A DNA stretch of 64,000 nt, from contig LDXX01000005.1 in assembly GCA_001442925.1 (NCBI GenBank), forward strand, positions 248,001-312,000, in the 5' to 3' direction. The notes beneath the pieces were generated by a model. It ran no database searches. It was given only the letters and a program-made list of their open reading frames with translations, and was not told where the DNA came from. This document shows, one piece after another, positions 56,905 through 60,439 of this stretch. Source of the stretch: Candidatus Kryptonium thompsonii (lineage in GTDB: Bacteria > Bacteroidota > Ignavibacteria > Kryptoniales > Kryptoniaceae). Position numbers and translations under genes: made by a program. Positions within the stretch are counted from its first letter, which is position 1, and every line of letters starts with the position of its first letter.

Positions 56905-56936
56905 CTTGACTTTTAAATTTTGCTTCATTATATTTG
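56905..56936 (+). promoter_or_regulatory. Promoter of the cytochrome P460-like gene
   Basis: CTTG (56905-56908), a 20-base spacer and TATATTTG (56929-56936) fit the Bacteroidetes TTTG-N20-TAnnTTTG pattern with one mismatch. The same bases also read as a sigma-70-like TTGACT (56906-56911) with a 17-base spacer to TATATT (56929-56934). Start of transcription is expected near 56943, about 38 bases before the ATG at 56981. The -7 box overlaps the palindrome listed next. Confidence 0.65.
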
Positions 56937-56953
56937 TTAGGAATCCTAACAAA
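56933..56953. promoter_or_regulatory. Palindromic operator over the P460 promoter start site
   Basis: A perfect 10+10-base palindrome around one central A (half-site TTTGTTAGGA), covering the end of the -7 box and the expected start of transcription. Size and symmetry suit a dimeric winged-helix repressor; the second gene of the unit encodes a MarR-family protein. Binding is inferred from position. Confidence 0.7.
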
Positions 56954-56980
56954 ATTCAAAACAAAATTTACGGTGTCATC

Positions 56981-57472
56981 ATGATTAAAAAGGCAATTTT
57001 AACGGTCGGCTTATTTGCCATTGCAGTTTTGTTTTTATTCTCAAATATCTCCGGTCAATCCAAGCCCAGTGTTCCATATCCCGAAGGATACAGGAAATGG
57101 GCTCATGTTAAATCAATGCTTATCCTGCCAGGACATCCGCTTTACGAAGCATTTGGTGGAATACATCACATATATGCGAACGATAAAGCAATGCGTGGAT
57201 ACAGAACTGGCAAATTTCCCGATGGTTCTGTAATTGTATTTGATCTTCTTGAAGCTAAATCTGAAAACAACACATATGTTGAAGGTGCAAGAAAAGTTGT
57301 CGGTGTGATGTATAAAGATTCCAAAAAATTTAAAAATACTGGTGGATGGGGTTTTGAAGCTTTCAAAGGCGATACAAAAGAAAGGGTTGTGAAAAATGCT
57401 GAGCAAGATTGTTTCTCATGTCATGCATCACAGGAAGCAACAGATTTTGTTTTTAGCCAGTATAGAAAGTAA
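56981..57472 (+). CDS. Cytochrome P460-like c-type haem protein
   Basis: Periplasmic haem protein. ATG at 56981 gives signal peptide 'MIKKAILTVGLFAIAVLFLFSNISGQ'; a longer frame back to 56906 begins inside the promoter and is rejected. Seen: 'YPEGYRKWAHVKSMLILPGHPLYEAFGGIHHIYANDKAMRGY', the P460 family N terminus, 'FPDGSVIVFDLLEAK', 'VGVMYKDSKKFKNTGGWGFEAF' and one haem-attachment CFSCH at 144-148. 163 residues. Cytochromes P460 oxidise hydroxylamine or act on NO; the related cytochrome c'-beta binds NO without the Lys-haem crosslink. I cannot tell from sequence which of these this is. Followed by a MarR-family gene. Confidence 0.88.
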   Translation: MIKKAILTVGLFAIAVLFLFSNISGQSKPSVPYPEGYRKWAHVKSMLILPGHPLYEAFGGIHHIYANDKAMRGYRTGKFPDGSVIVFDLLEAKSENNTYVEGARKVVGVMYKDSKKFKNTGGWGFEAFKGDTKERVVKNAEQDCFSCHASQEATDFVFSQYRK

Positions 57473-57487
57473 ATTAACGTAAAACAA

Positions 57488-57513
57488 AAGGCGGGGCTTT
57501 CCTGCCCCGCCTT
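57488..57513. terminator. GC-rich hairpin between the P460 and MarR genes
   Basis: Perfect 10-base stem (AAGGCGGGGC with its complement) and a 6-base loop, 15 bases after the P460 stop. On the plus strand no U-run follows (GTAAAAAG), so full termination is doubtful; it could protect the P460 mRNA end or reduce read-through into the MarR gene. On the minus strand the stem is followed by U-rich TTTTGTTTTACG, but no minus-strand gene ends here. Confidence 0.6.
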
Positions 57514-57539
57514 GTAAAAAGTTAAACAAACTTAAAAAT

Positions 57540-58163
57540 ATGGCACCGGTATTTGATCCGATAGAACAAAATGAAAACATTGATTCAAAAATTATTGCAG
57601 GGCTCGAAAGAATCTCAAGAGTTTTTAGACTTCTTTTATGGGATATCGCAAAAGATGAAAATTTAAGCCCAATTCAAATTCAATTTTTGATTTTTCTTCT
57701 CTACAATAAACCCTCCCGAAGACGCATAACAGATATCGCAAATGAGTTCAACCTCACGAAAGCAACCGTAAGTGATGCAATATCTTCACTTGAAGAAAAA
57801 AATTTAATCGAAAAAGATAAAAACACGGAAGATAAGCGAAGCTATGCTATCAAACTCACCCCAAAGGGTAAAAAACTCGCAAAACAGCTTTCCATCTGGG
57901 CTGATGTTTTAAAAAACAATCTAAAAAATTTTAATCAGGAAGAGAAAGAAGCAGTTCTTAAATTCATCTTCAAACTAATCGAGTCCCTCTACGAAGCAGG
58001 AATAATCACGATACAAAGAATGTGTTTTTCATGCCTTTACTTCCAAAGGGACATTCACCCAAATCCAGAAGCCCCACATCATTGCAACTTTCTTAACAAA
58101 CCACTTTCTATCGTTGAGCTTCGCCTCGATTGTGAGGACTACGCTCCGATTGAATCAAATTAA
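57540..58163 (+). CDS. MarR-family regulator with four-cysteine C-terminal tail
   Basis: Winged-helix transcription factor, 207 residues, about 60 more than typical MarR. Seen: dimerisation helices, then 'LSPIQIQFLIFLLYNKPSRRRITDIANEFNLTKATVSDAISSLEEKNLIEKDKNTEDKRSYAIKLTPKG' with recognition helix and wing. After residue 155 comes a tail with Cys162, Cys165 (CxxC), His180-His181-Cys182 and Cys198, ligands enough for an iron-sulphur cluster or zinc. It most likely regulates the upstream haem gene through the 21-bp palindrome; the Cys tail suggests redox or NO sensing, which is inference. Start ATG at 57540 has no clear ribosome-binding site. Confidence 0.87.
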   Translation: MAPVFDPIEQNENIDSKIIAGLERISRVFRLLLWDIAKDENLSPIQIQFLIFLLYNKPSRRRITDIANEFNLTKATVSDAISSLEEKNLIEKDKNTEDKRSYAIKLTPKGKKLAKQLSIWADVLKNNLKNFNQEEKEAVLKFIFKLIESLYEAGIITIQRMCFSCLYFQRDIHPNPEAPHHCNFLNKPLSIVELRLDCEDYAPIESN

Positions 58164-58196: not shown

Positions 58197-59471
58197 TTAA
58201 GCTTTCTTCTTCAAAATCACAATATATTCATATCTCATAGTGAGATCTTTTTCACCTTTGACATTAGATGGTGAGTTTTCAATAGGCATTCTCTTATTAG
58301 ATATTGCCCTTACAATTGTTTTTTGATGTTCAAAACCCTGACTTTCAAAAAAATCCGCAGAAATTTTATCTGTCGGCAGTTCTAATCCTTTTACCTTTCT
58401 ATTGCCAACGACAAAACAAACAAAACCTTTCTCTCTAACTTTCTTCGCTATGATTTGGATGGATGTGTATAAATCCGCATAAAACGAAAATACCTCCTTT
58501 GCTCTCTTTTCATCTTTATCTGCGATCTTTTCTATATATTTATAAAGTAAGTCCGAAGGTAATCCTAAATTAATATCCTTAGGTTTTGCCCCAAGCGATG
58601 TTCGATCTACATTCTCCTCTAATCCCAACCATCTTAAGGATAACCTTGAAAATTGACCATAAGCCACTGTAGTTTTTGAATCCCCATAAGGCGGAGAAGT
58701 GATTACCAAATCGACGGAATTATCTTCCAATGGAATGCCATCTATTATATTCCTTTCCTCAAGTTTTAGAGAGACTTTGTGCGGTGTGAATTTATTGTAA
58801 AAATCTGTAAGTAGCCCGATATTTTTTAGAGACACTTCTCTAAAGGTTTTTACAACATCAGGAGTATCATCGTCTTTTTTTCTTATCAGCTTAAATTCTT
58901 CATACCTTGCTTTTGAAACTCTTCTTACAGTTTCTGAAAATACTACTTTAAAGAAATCCCTTACATCACTGTTTTCTATGTTAAATATTACTTGTCGTAG
59001 TTTCGACAAATTTTTTATTACATCCTCATCAAACCAATAATAAATATTTGGGAATTCCACGGTTTCAGGTTTCTGCTCTTTAAAGGTTTGCAAGATACAC
59101 TCTAATGTCTCTAAAAGCGAATTGAATGGTATGGGTGTTGTTCTAACTTTTGAGATTAACACAGCCAATGGATTTATATCATAGCCAACAAAATTTCTTC
59201 CGCTAATCAAACATTCGCCAGCAACTACTCCAGAACCCATAAACGGATCTAAAACATTTTCTCCCTCATTAGAAAAATTCTTGATGATTTCCCTCACAAC
59301 TAAAAAGTGAAACATAGCGGGATAAGGATGTATTCCATAGATTCCAGTGCCTGCTGGAGTATCTTTGAAATCAAAATATTCATCTCTTACTCGCTTAAAA
59401 GGCAACCTCTTTACTAACTTATTAACTTCGACATTCTTTCCTTCAGTTTCAAATAGAGCTATTTGTTTCAT
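58197..59471 (-). CDS. Type II DNA methyltransferase (amino-methylating)
   Basis: Modification half of a restriction-modification pair. 424 residues. Seen: motif X-like 'HPYPAMFHFLVVREII', SAM-binding motif I 'VLDPFMGSGVVAGECLISGRNFVGYDIN' (75-100), and the catalytic motif IV 'TSPPYGDS' at 258-265, so it methylates an exocyclic amino group (N4-cytosine or N6-adenine). Motif I precedes motif IV by about 180 residues, and the region between them probably holds target recognition. TSPPY is more usual in N4-cytosine enzymes. Overlaps the nuclease gene by four bases (ATGA). Confidence 0.9.
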   Translation of the reverse strand: MKQIALFETEGKNVEVNKLVKRLPFKRVRDEYFDFKDTPAGTGIYGIHPYPAMFHFLVVREIIKNFSNEGENVLDPFMGSGVVAGECLISGRNFVGYDINPLAVLISKVRTTPIPFNSLLETLECILQTFKEQKPETVEFPNIYYWFDEDVIKNLSKLRQVIFNIENSDVRDFFKVVFSETVRRVSKARYEEFKLIRKKDDDTPDVVKTFREVSLKNIGLLTDFYNKFTPHKVSLKLEERNIIDGIPLEDNSVDLVITSPPYGDSKTTVAYGQFSRLSLRWLGLEENVDRTSLGAKPKDINLGLPSDLLYKYIEKIADKDEKRAKEVFSFYADLYTSIQIIAKKVREKGFVCFVVGNRKVKGLELPTDKISADFFESQGFEHQKTIVRAISNKRMPIENSPSNVKGEKDLTMRYEYIVILKKKA

Positions 59472-60226
59472 ATTTTTCTCAGCTCCTTAGGTAAATCAGA
59501 TAATTTTCTAATCCAAGGCATTTTTTTAAAGGCTCTGTTTTTCAATAGTTCATCTCTAACAAATGCGATTAGCCCTTTCTGATTTATTTCGTTAGCTTTG
59601 CTTTCTGGCAAATTTTCATCTATTGTTATAAGGTAGATTCTTTGATTTGGTCGAGCTTGCGGAACTTCTTGTTTCCATCTTTCTCTCAATGTTCGTTTAC
59701 AAGTTAAAAATATTGCTCTATCGGGAGTTTTAGTAGCAATCTCCACAGATGGTATTACTATATCAATCCGTCTTAACTCCTCTCTTGCTTTTCCTTTTGG
59801 GATTTCACATTTAATATCTATAAAATTTAAGAGTTTTAAAAGCACTTTTTCAAAAGTTTTACCGCCCCTTGCCTTTCTCATGTTACCTAAAACCTTCTCA
59901 AAATTTTGAACCAAAACACCAAATTCTACAAAAATTTCACTTGCCTTTTCTATAAACCTATCCCACCCATCCTGAGCAACAATTTTCTCTAACCTTTCCT
60001 TAATCTCTTTCTTTTGTAAACTTATCCAAGATTTTGCAAGTTTCTCTAAAGCCTTTCTCTCATAGTTTCTGAATATCTCTGTTGCCTTTTCATCAAACAT
60101 TACCAATACTTTTCCAAAATTATTTCTTACAAAAGATTTATTTAACCCCAGATCATCCCATGTCTCGTTGAGAATACGGTTAACAGATGGAATTTCACTT
60201 TTTGCTGTTTCAATGAGCTTTTCCAT
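59468..60226 (-). CDS. Type II restriction endonuclease, PD-(D/E)xK-type
   Basis: Restriction half of the pair; 252 residues. Likely catalytic elements (numbering from a TTG one codon upstream): Glu127, Asp156 in 'RRIDIVIPS' and Cys177-Lys178 in 'FLTCKRTLRERWKQE'. The '-CKxxxRERWxQ' block resembles the active site of the EcoRII/PspGI group. The N-terminal 110 residues are helical and highly charged and may hold specificity or dimer contacts. ATG at 60226. Directly upstream of, and overlapping, the methyltransferase. I infer function from this motif and from position; recognition site unknown. Confidence 0.8.
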   Translation of the reverse strand: MEKLIETAKSEIPSVNRILNETWDDLGLNKSFVRNNFGKVLVMFDEKATEIFRNYERKALEKLAKSWISLQKKEIKERLEKIVAQDGWDRFIEKASEIFVEFGVLVQNFEKVLGNMRKARGGKTFEKVLLKLLNFIDIKCEIPKGKAREELRRIDIVIPSVEIATKTPDRAIFLTCKRTLRERWKQEVPQARPNQRIYLITIDENLPESKANEINQKGLIAFVRDELLKNRAFKKMPWIRKLSDLPKELRKI

Positions 60227-60439
60227 CAAAAATTTTTTCTCCTGTTCACTTACTTTTTATCGTTTGTTAACATCATTTTAACGAAAAACAAGCAAAAAAT
60301 CAATTGGTTTTAGTAGTTGCGCAACTCTTCTCCAACACTGATTCTTATCTCCTACAGACTAAACTTTCCAAACTTTTAGTTGAACTTTTCAAAATTTTGA
60401 GTTAACATTATACAAAGAAAACAAAAAATACCGCTTGAC

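Follow-up and report, generated by a model that had tools for sequence, protein, structure and literature searches.

A MarR-family regulator with a four-cysteine tail and its predicted operator at a cytochrome c'-beta locus of Candidatus Kryptonium thompsonii

Cytochromes c'-beta are P460-fold proteins that bind NO; their structures are known in detail, and their physiological role is undetermined (PMC11928373). McCP-beta of Methylococcus capsulatus and TtCP-beta of Thermus thermophilus are described members of this family, sharing a capping Phe, a Phe where the cross-linking Lys would otherwise stand, a Gly at the position of the catalytic carboxylate and a single C-terminal CxxCH motif. The three positions concerned, which in McCP-beta are Phe32, Phe61 and Gly82, separate gas-binding c'-beta proteins from hydroxylamine-oxidising P460 proteins (PMC11928373). 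No account of c'-beta regulation was found in the same review.

Regulators that respond to NO have been characterized in other settings. ArnR of Corynebacterium glutamicum is a [4Fe-4S] protein with a MarR/ArsR-like winged helix that controls nar and hmp, and its DNA binding is abolished by NO. It carries three conserved cysteines (179, 193 and 223), and its homologues are found almost exclusively in Actinobacteria (PMC12343034). NsrR, an Fe-S repressor of the Rrf2 family, and HcpR, a member of the CRP/FNR family, control hcp, globin-type genes and other NO-stress genes; the survey of their regulons makes no mention of a MarR-type regulator (PMC1274295). Additionally, the nic cluster of T. thermophilus encodes an NsrR, an NO-related Fe-S regulator of the Rrf2 family that binds CTTGACCNNGGTCATGG (PMC5748679).

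The locus analysed here belongs to Candidatus Kryptonium thompsonii, a bacterium of hot springs, and lies in a window of 64 kb, by which the whole stretch of analysed DNA is meant. It joins a gene for a c'-beta protein to a gene for a MarR-family regulator, and its features, in window coordinates, are as follows.

56906 to 56934, plus strand: sigma-70-like promoter TTGACT-17-TATATT, with the -35 element TTGACT at 56906-56911, a spacer of 17 nt and the -10 element TATATT at 56929-56934
56933 to 56953: predicted operator, the perfect 21-bp palindrome TTTGTTAGGAATCCTAACAAA, with arms of 10 and one central base
56937 to 56949: 13-bp core TTAGGAATCCTAA of the palindrome, spanning the expected transcription start
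56981 to 57472, plus strand: cytochrome c'-beta (P460 fold; PF16694, PDB 6hih), 163 aa, probably an exported monohaem c protein
57410 to 57424, plus strand: haem c attachment motif CFSCH, read from the sequence
57488 to 57513, plus strand: GC-rich hairpin separating the c'-beta gene from marR (intergenic stretch z = -4.5)
57540 to 58163, plus strand: MarR-family regulator, 207 aa, with a winged-helix core (PF01047, E = 4.9e-11)
58002 to 58160, plus strand: C-terminal four-cysteine tail, a predicted metal or Fe-S site (codons C162 at 58023, C165 at 58032, C182 at 58083 and C198 at 58131)

A preliminary description of this DNA had named a P460-type haem protein and connected it with hydroxylamine or NO. 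The family assignment is upheld: a profile search matches the protein over its whole length to PF16694 (Cytochrome_P460, E = 2.9e-37), and at the level of sequence it combines the P460 fold with a C-terminal CxxCH. Its closest PDB entry is 6hih (E = 2.9e-51), recognised as McCP-beta by the Phe32/Phe61 variants that PMC11928373 lists, to which 75 of 152 aligned positions are identical. The hydroxylamine role, in turn, became less likely. F58, F87 and G108 align with Phe32, Phe61 and Gly82 of McCP-beta, so that a hydrophobic residue stands where the cross-linking Lys would be and the distal carboxylate is absent; the haem-cross-linked Lys and distal Glu/Asp of hydroxylamine-oxidising P460 proteins are replaced by Phe and Gly. 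By these residues the protein is assigned to the cytochrome c'-beta subclass. Since Phe occupies the cross-link position and Gly the position of the catalytic carboxylate, gas binding is likelier than hydroxylamine oxidation, and NO binding is thus the better guess for its activity.

A c'-beta gene whose product is 65% identical to the Kryptonia protein is carried by the Pseudomonas aeruginosa plasmid pAFM-PA19-3158 (L214, 4944-5420), amid integrases and IS66 elements. Neither marR nor the dyad lies nearby, and this gene is possibly a mobile copy.

The arrangement of the unit agrees with what had been described from the sequence at the outset: a promoter, a perfect palindrome over the start site and a single plus-strand unit to which no other gene is attached. 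The neighbouring genes, an aminomethyltransferase-like gene on one side and a DNA methylase gene on the other, are both on the minus strand, so the plus-strand unit stands alone in the K. thompsonii genome. The palindrome begins at the end of the -10 element and therefore spans the expected start of transcription. With 0.01 matches expected in the 64-kb window at up to three mismatches, it is beyond chance, and the 2.59-Mb genome holds a single exact copy of its core TTAGGAATCCTAA. Taken by themselves, the promoter hexamers are not significant (3 seen vs 3.9 expected); they are conserved jointly with the dyad in six Kryptonia species. The half-site TTTGTTAGGA, whose recurrence the preliminary description had proposed to follow, does not recur usefully: it is not enriched (6 matches, both arms included, vs 13 for the reversed control), which indicates that the dyad is the signal, and it was rejected as a regulon marker. 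A search of the genome for dyads with up to two mismatches was also set aside as uninformative, returning 59 sites vs 215 for the reversed control.

Between marR and a gene for a DPP IV-type peptidase, the minus strand holds a DNA methylase (PF01555) and an EcoRII-C-like endonuclease (58197-60229). The peptidase gene directly follows marR in genomes G001, G003, G004 and G006, and a gene resembling the methylase gene in size and strand intervenes in G002. This comparison suggests that the methylase/endonuclease pair beside marR is a restriction-modification insertion.

Conservation of the pair in relatives, and of the palindrome upstream of the orthologous genes, had been named as a check of the original proposal, and both are found within the genus. 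The two genes are adjacent and in the same order in five of six further genus members; the sixth genome is 71% complete and contains neither. All six members that have the MarR gene, the window genome included, keep the pair, the promoter and the dyad TTAGGANTCCTAA just after the -10 element. Both promoter elements and the core stand at identical spacing in these six species, and the flanks drift. Homologue identities are 78% in Candidatus Kryptonia bacterium and 75% in Candidatus Chrysopegis kryptomonas. The exact dyad is present in one copy per genome in five species and in two copies in G004; the additional G004 copy falls within a region of glycosyltransferase-type genes. The intergenic hairpin is likewise in the same place in all six species (L008-L012 and the window), with few compensatory changes and a T-run in one (L010). 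It is possibly a leaky terminator, an attenuator or a processing site, setting the ratio of cytochrome to regulator.

The regulator has the winged-helix domain with flanking helices that is typical of the MarR family, matching both PF01047 and PF12802 above cut-off. Its AlphaFold2 model reaches a mean pLDDT of 91, and Foldseek aligns the core with MepR, SlyA and MexR. The cysteine tail already recognized in the initial reading follows the pattern C162-x2-C165-x16-C182-x15-C198, and its four cysteines are invariant in 54 aligned homologues. The tail is modelled at high confidence by AlphaFold2 and has zero matches in Pfam or the PDB. Four invariant cysteines point to a four-thiolate metal or Fe-S site, and a structural zinc site would suit them no less than an Fe-S cluster.

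This protein resembles ArnR in combining a winged helix with a C-terminal cysteine sensor region and in the repression, predicted for Kryptonia, of an NO-handling haem protein. It differs from ArnR as that protein has been described, having four cysteines in a CxxC-x16-C-x15-C arrangement and another set of partners. By profile test it is not an NsrR-type Rrf2 protein: the Rrf2 domain PF02082 gives no match in the window protein at E ≤ 0.01, and the weak cross-matches that it gives in 14 of the 54 relatives, at best 6.5e-4, fall below the MarR models, which match all 54. The regulons of NsrR and HcpR contain genes of a similar kind, whereas the regulators belong to other protein families and the DNA motifs are different (PMC1274295).

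MarR proteins with the four-cysteine tail are a large family distributed over many phyla, and the operator tracks them. An exact dyad lies within 2.5 kb upstream at 45 of 85 such loci, where 0.05 were expected and each of nine control dyads gave 0-1, although the loci are related and the counts are therefore not independent. At 33 of the 40 other loci, a scan with a matrix built from the exact-dyad sites (consensus ATAGTTAGGANTCCTAACTAT) detects a degenerate dyad scoring 13-26, vs a shuffled maximum of 6. The dyads mostly sit just before the first gene of the operon. Their spread over phyla and the changing partner genes make mere common descent of the flanks unlikely. Among 61 relatives, the dyad occurs in 9 of 11 genomes with a Cys-tail MarR and in 0 of 50 without (p = 3e-9); for a phylum sample of 248 genomes, the corresponding figures are 10 of 19 and 19 of 229 (p = 5e-6). 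Beyond the 85 loci, marR of a Nostoc plasmid and the c'-beta gene of Thermus plasmids are preceded by exact dyads, and Sphingopyxis and Rhizobium have ATAGGA variants of the dyad. The dyad thus follows the family into other phyla, and the pairing of P460 and MarR is not a private arrangement but an instance of a far broader system of regulator and operator.

Comparative evidence that this family, as is usual for MarR proteins, binds a palindrome in the promoter of its own operon is strong, and so is the predicted pairing of regulator and operator. Conversely, the dyad might be bound by a different regulator, with the MarR gene as a passenger of the operon. Such an explanation can draw on the comparative nature of the link, in which binding is predicted, and on the few family members that have no dyad nearby. 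It must then account for a dyad that follows the MarR gene over many phyla with different partners, and that is present even where c'-beta and marR occupy different contigs, which makes it very improbable. The latter arrangement is seen in G038 and G145, where the promoter of a lone c'-beta gene holds an exact dyad and marR sits on a separate contig; retention of the dyad away from the regulator argues for control in trans.

Further exact dyads occur in G004, G082, G076, G077 and G202; those inspected lie in or beside unrelated genes and were taken as chance. The matrix scan detects no dyad at L081, L143, L152, L171 and L172. The last four form the Kapaibacteria/Ignavibacteria branch of the family, which has possibly changed its operator.

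The genes found between the dyad and marR, or just downstream, encode c'-beta, protoglobin (PF11563), truncated globin (PF01152) and hybrid cluster protein (PF03063). Other partners of marR are a DUF438-hemerythrin-PAS protein (L147), a CPVC thioredoxin-like protein, a DUF2024 protein and an exported protein. At L099 and L102, the gene for hybrid cluster protein (Hcp) is directly downstream of marR, and the dyad is 33 bp before marR. Many MarR proteins sense small ligands in the MarR pocket, and the MarR fold is intact here, so that the tail could be a structural zinc knuckle only and the signal a small organic ligand in the usual pocket. The partner genes encode gas-binding haem proteins and redox proteins, not catabolic or efflux functions, which renders an organic ligand improbable.

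A stronger competitor is a general sensor of thiol or oxidative stress, in which a zinc-thiolate or redox-active cysteines of the tail would be oxidised by peroxide, electrophiles or disulfide stress, with NO as one inducer or none. A thioredoxin-like partner is present at 47 of 85 loci. Relatives in other phyla adjoin comparable genes: those of Nostoc, Sphingopyxis and Rhizobium lie beside thiol peroxidase, thioredoxin, superoxide dismutase (SOD) or peroxidase genes, and that of Hymenobacter is near a catalase gene. In Nostoc, one dyad precedes the thioredoxin gene and another separates thiol peroxidase from marR; in Rhizobium, variant dyads are found near SOD and peroxidase operons. The thiol peroxidase, SOD, peroxidase and catalase neighbours suggest a wider redox signal. 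Additionally, no role in NO handling is known for the commonest partners in Flavobacteria, namely the CPVC thioredoxin-like protein, DUF2024 and an uncharacterised exported protein of 240 aa, which speaks against a pure NO reading. These three constitute a conserved Flavobacteria operon, upstream of marR and with the same dyad, at L098, L108, L139 and about 30 other loci.

Hcp, c'-beta, the globins, the DUF438-hemerythrin protein and a nir/nor setting are, however, typical of NO regulons. Moreover, the nearest neighbours of the Kryptonia regulators in a maximum-likelihood tree are Hcp- and hemerythrin-linked (support 80/84), and the link of c'-beta to Cys-tail MarR proteins requires at least four changes on that tree. 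A general sensor of thiol or oxidative stress is regarded as less likely. NO or reactive nitrogen is ranked first as the signal and broader redox stress second; we infer both the signal and the cofactor. The NO reading is favoured by the Hcp, DUF438-hemerythrin, truncated globin and protoglobin partners and by the nir/nor setting in Thermus.

That setting is found on a plasmid of T. thermophilus AA2-2, where the c'-beta/marR pair has the dyad after a -10-like TTAATAT. The pair adjoins nitrite reductase, a cbb3-type oxidase/cytochrome c pair (probable NorBC), a DUF542 protein and an Rrf2 regulator. The Rrf2 gene thus shares a cluster with the pair; T. thermophilus NsrR, as a protein of this family, binds its own motif and not TTAGGANTCCTAA. 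In HB27, where the orthologous regulator is WP_011174471, and in T. oshimai JL-2, the pair lacks these denitrification neighbours in the stretch examined, and the HB27 dyad differs by one base, TTAGGAATCCCAA. A Thermus 'NorR, MarR-family' (PMC9270275) was considered as a possible Cys-tail MarR and rejected. PMC9270275 cites PMC7694296, where NorR has the NsrR properties given in PMC5748679 and MarR is unmentioned; it is taken, not with certainty, to be NsrR renamed.

Kryptonia are reported to have N2O reductase, with the other denitrification steps absent, and to co-occur with N2O-producing Thermus (PMC4737851). The reported reductase and such neighbours make exposure to NO made by neighbours plausible. 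The genome carries nos_propeller and prismane/Hcp-type genes; its own hcp gene has no exact dyad, which counts against the NO reading.

Autoregulated nitrosative or redox defence, as originally suggested, is still the best reading of the locus. In its preferred form, to which we give a probability of about 0.6, it is a stress operon in which the Cys-tail MarR represses c'-beta and marR until NO or a related species hits the tail site. As its position suggests, a MarR dimer would bind the dyad over the transcription start and block both genes, and the four-cysteine tail would hold a metal or an Fe-S cluster. NO or a related reactive species would destroy or nitrosylate this site, causing the repressor to leave the DNA. 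Periplasmic cytochrome c'-beta would then be made, bind NO and lower its free level, and falling NO together with fresh repressor would close the switch; the intergenic hairpin may hold regulator output under cytochrome output. In effect, the regulator would use a MarR core to act like NsrR or ArnR, as a repressor governed by NO or redox signals.

The open-access literature searched yielded no account of Cys-tail MarR proteins, of the tail itself or of the operator (the dyad sought as TTAGGAATCCTAA), nor one of a MarR protein paired with P460, protoglobin, Hcp, Fe-S tails or DUF2024. More tentatively, and at somewhat less than even odds, MarR repressors with a four-cysteine Fe-S tail may be a pan-bacterial new class of NO sensors, with one operator, TAGGANTCCTA, from Bacteroidota to Deinococcota, Acidobacteriota, Cyanobacteria and Alphaproteobacteria and with swappable haem and redox effectors. 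If this is true, DUF2024, the CPVC thioredoxin-like protein and the 240-aa exported protein would be new NO-defence proteins.

For c'-beta itself, the gene of a predicted repressor follows in both Kryptonia and Thermus, and this conserved, dedicated repressor with its operator would tie the protein to an inducible response. The c'-beta/marR pair gives a direct test of this in T. thermophilus, where gene deletion is established (PMC5748679). For the family, the shared regulator-operator pair marks a set of operons across numerous phyla, and on this basis DUF2024 and two further uncharacterised protein families are predicted to share a function.
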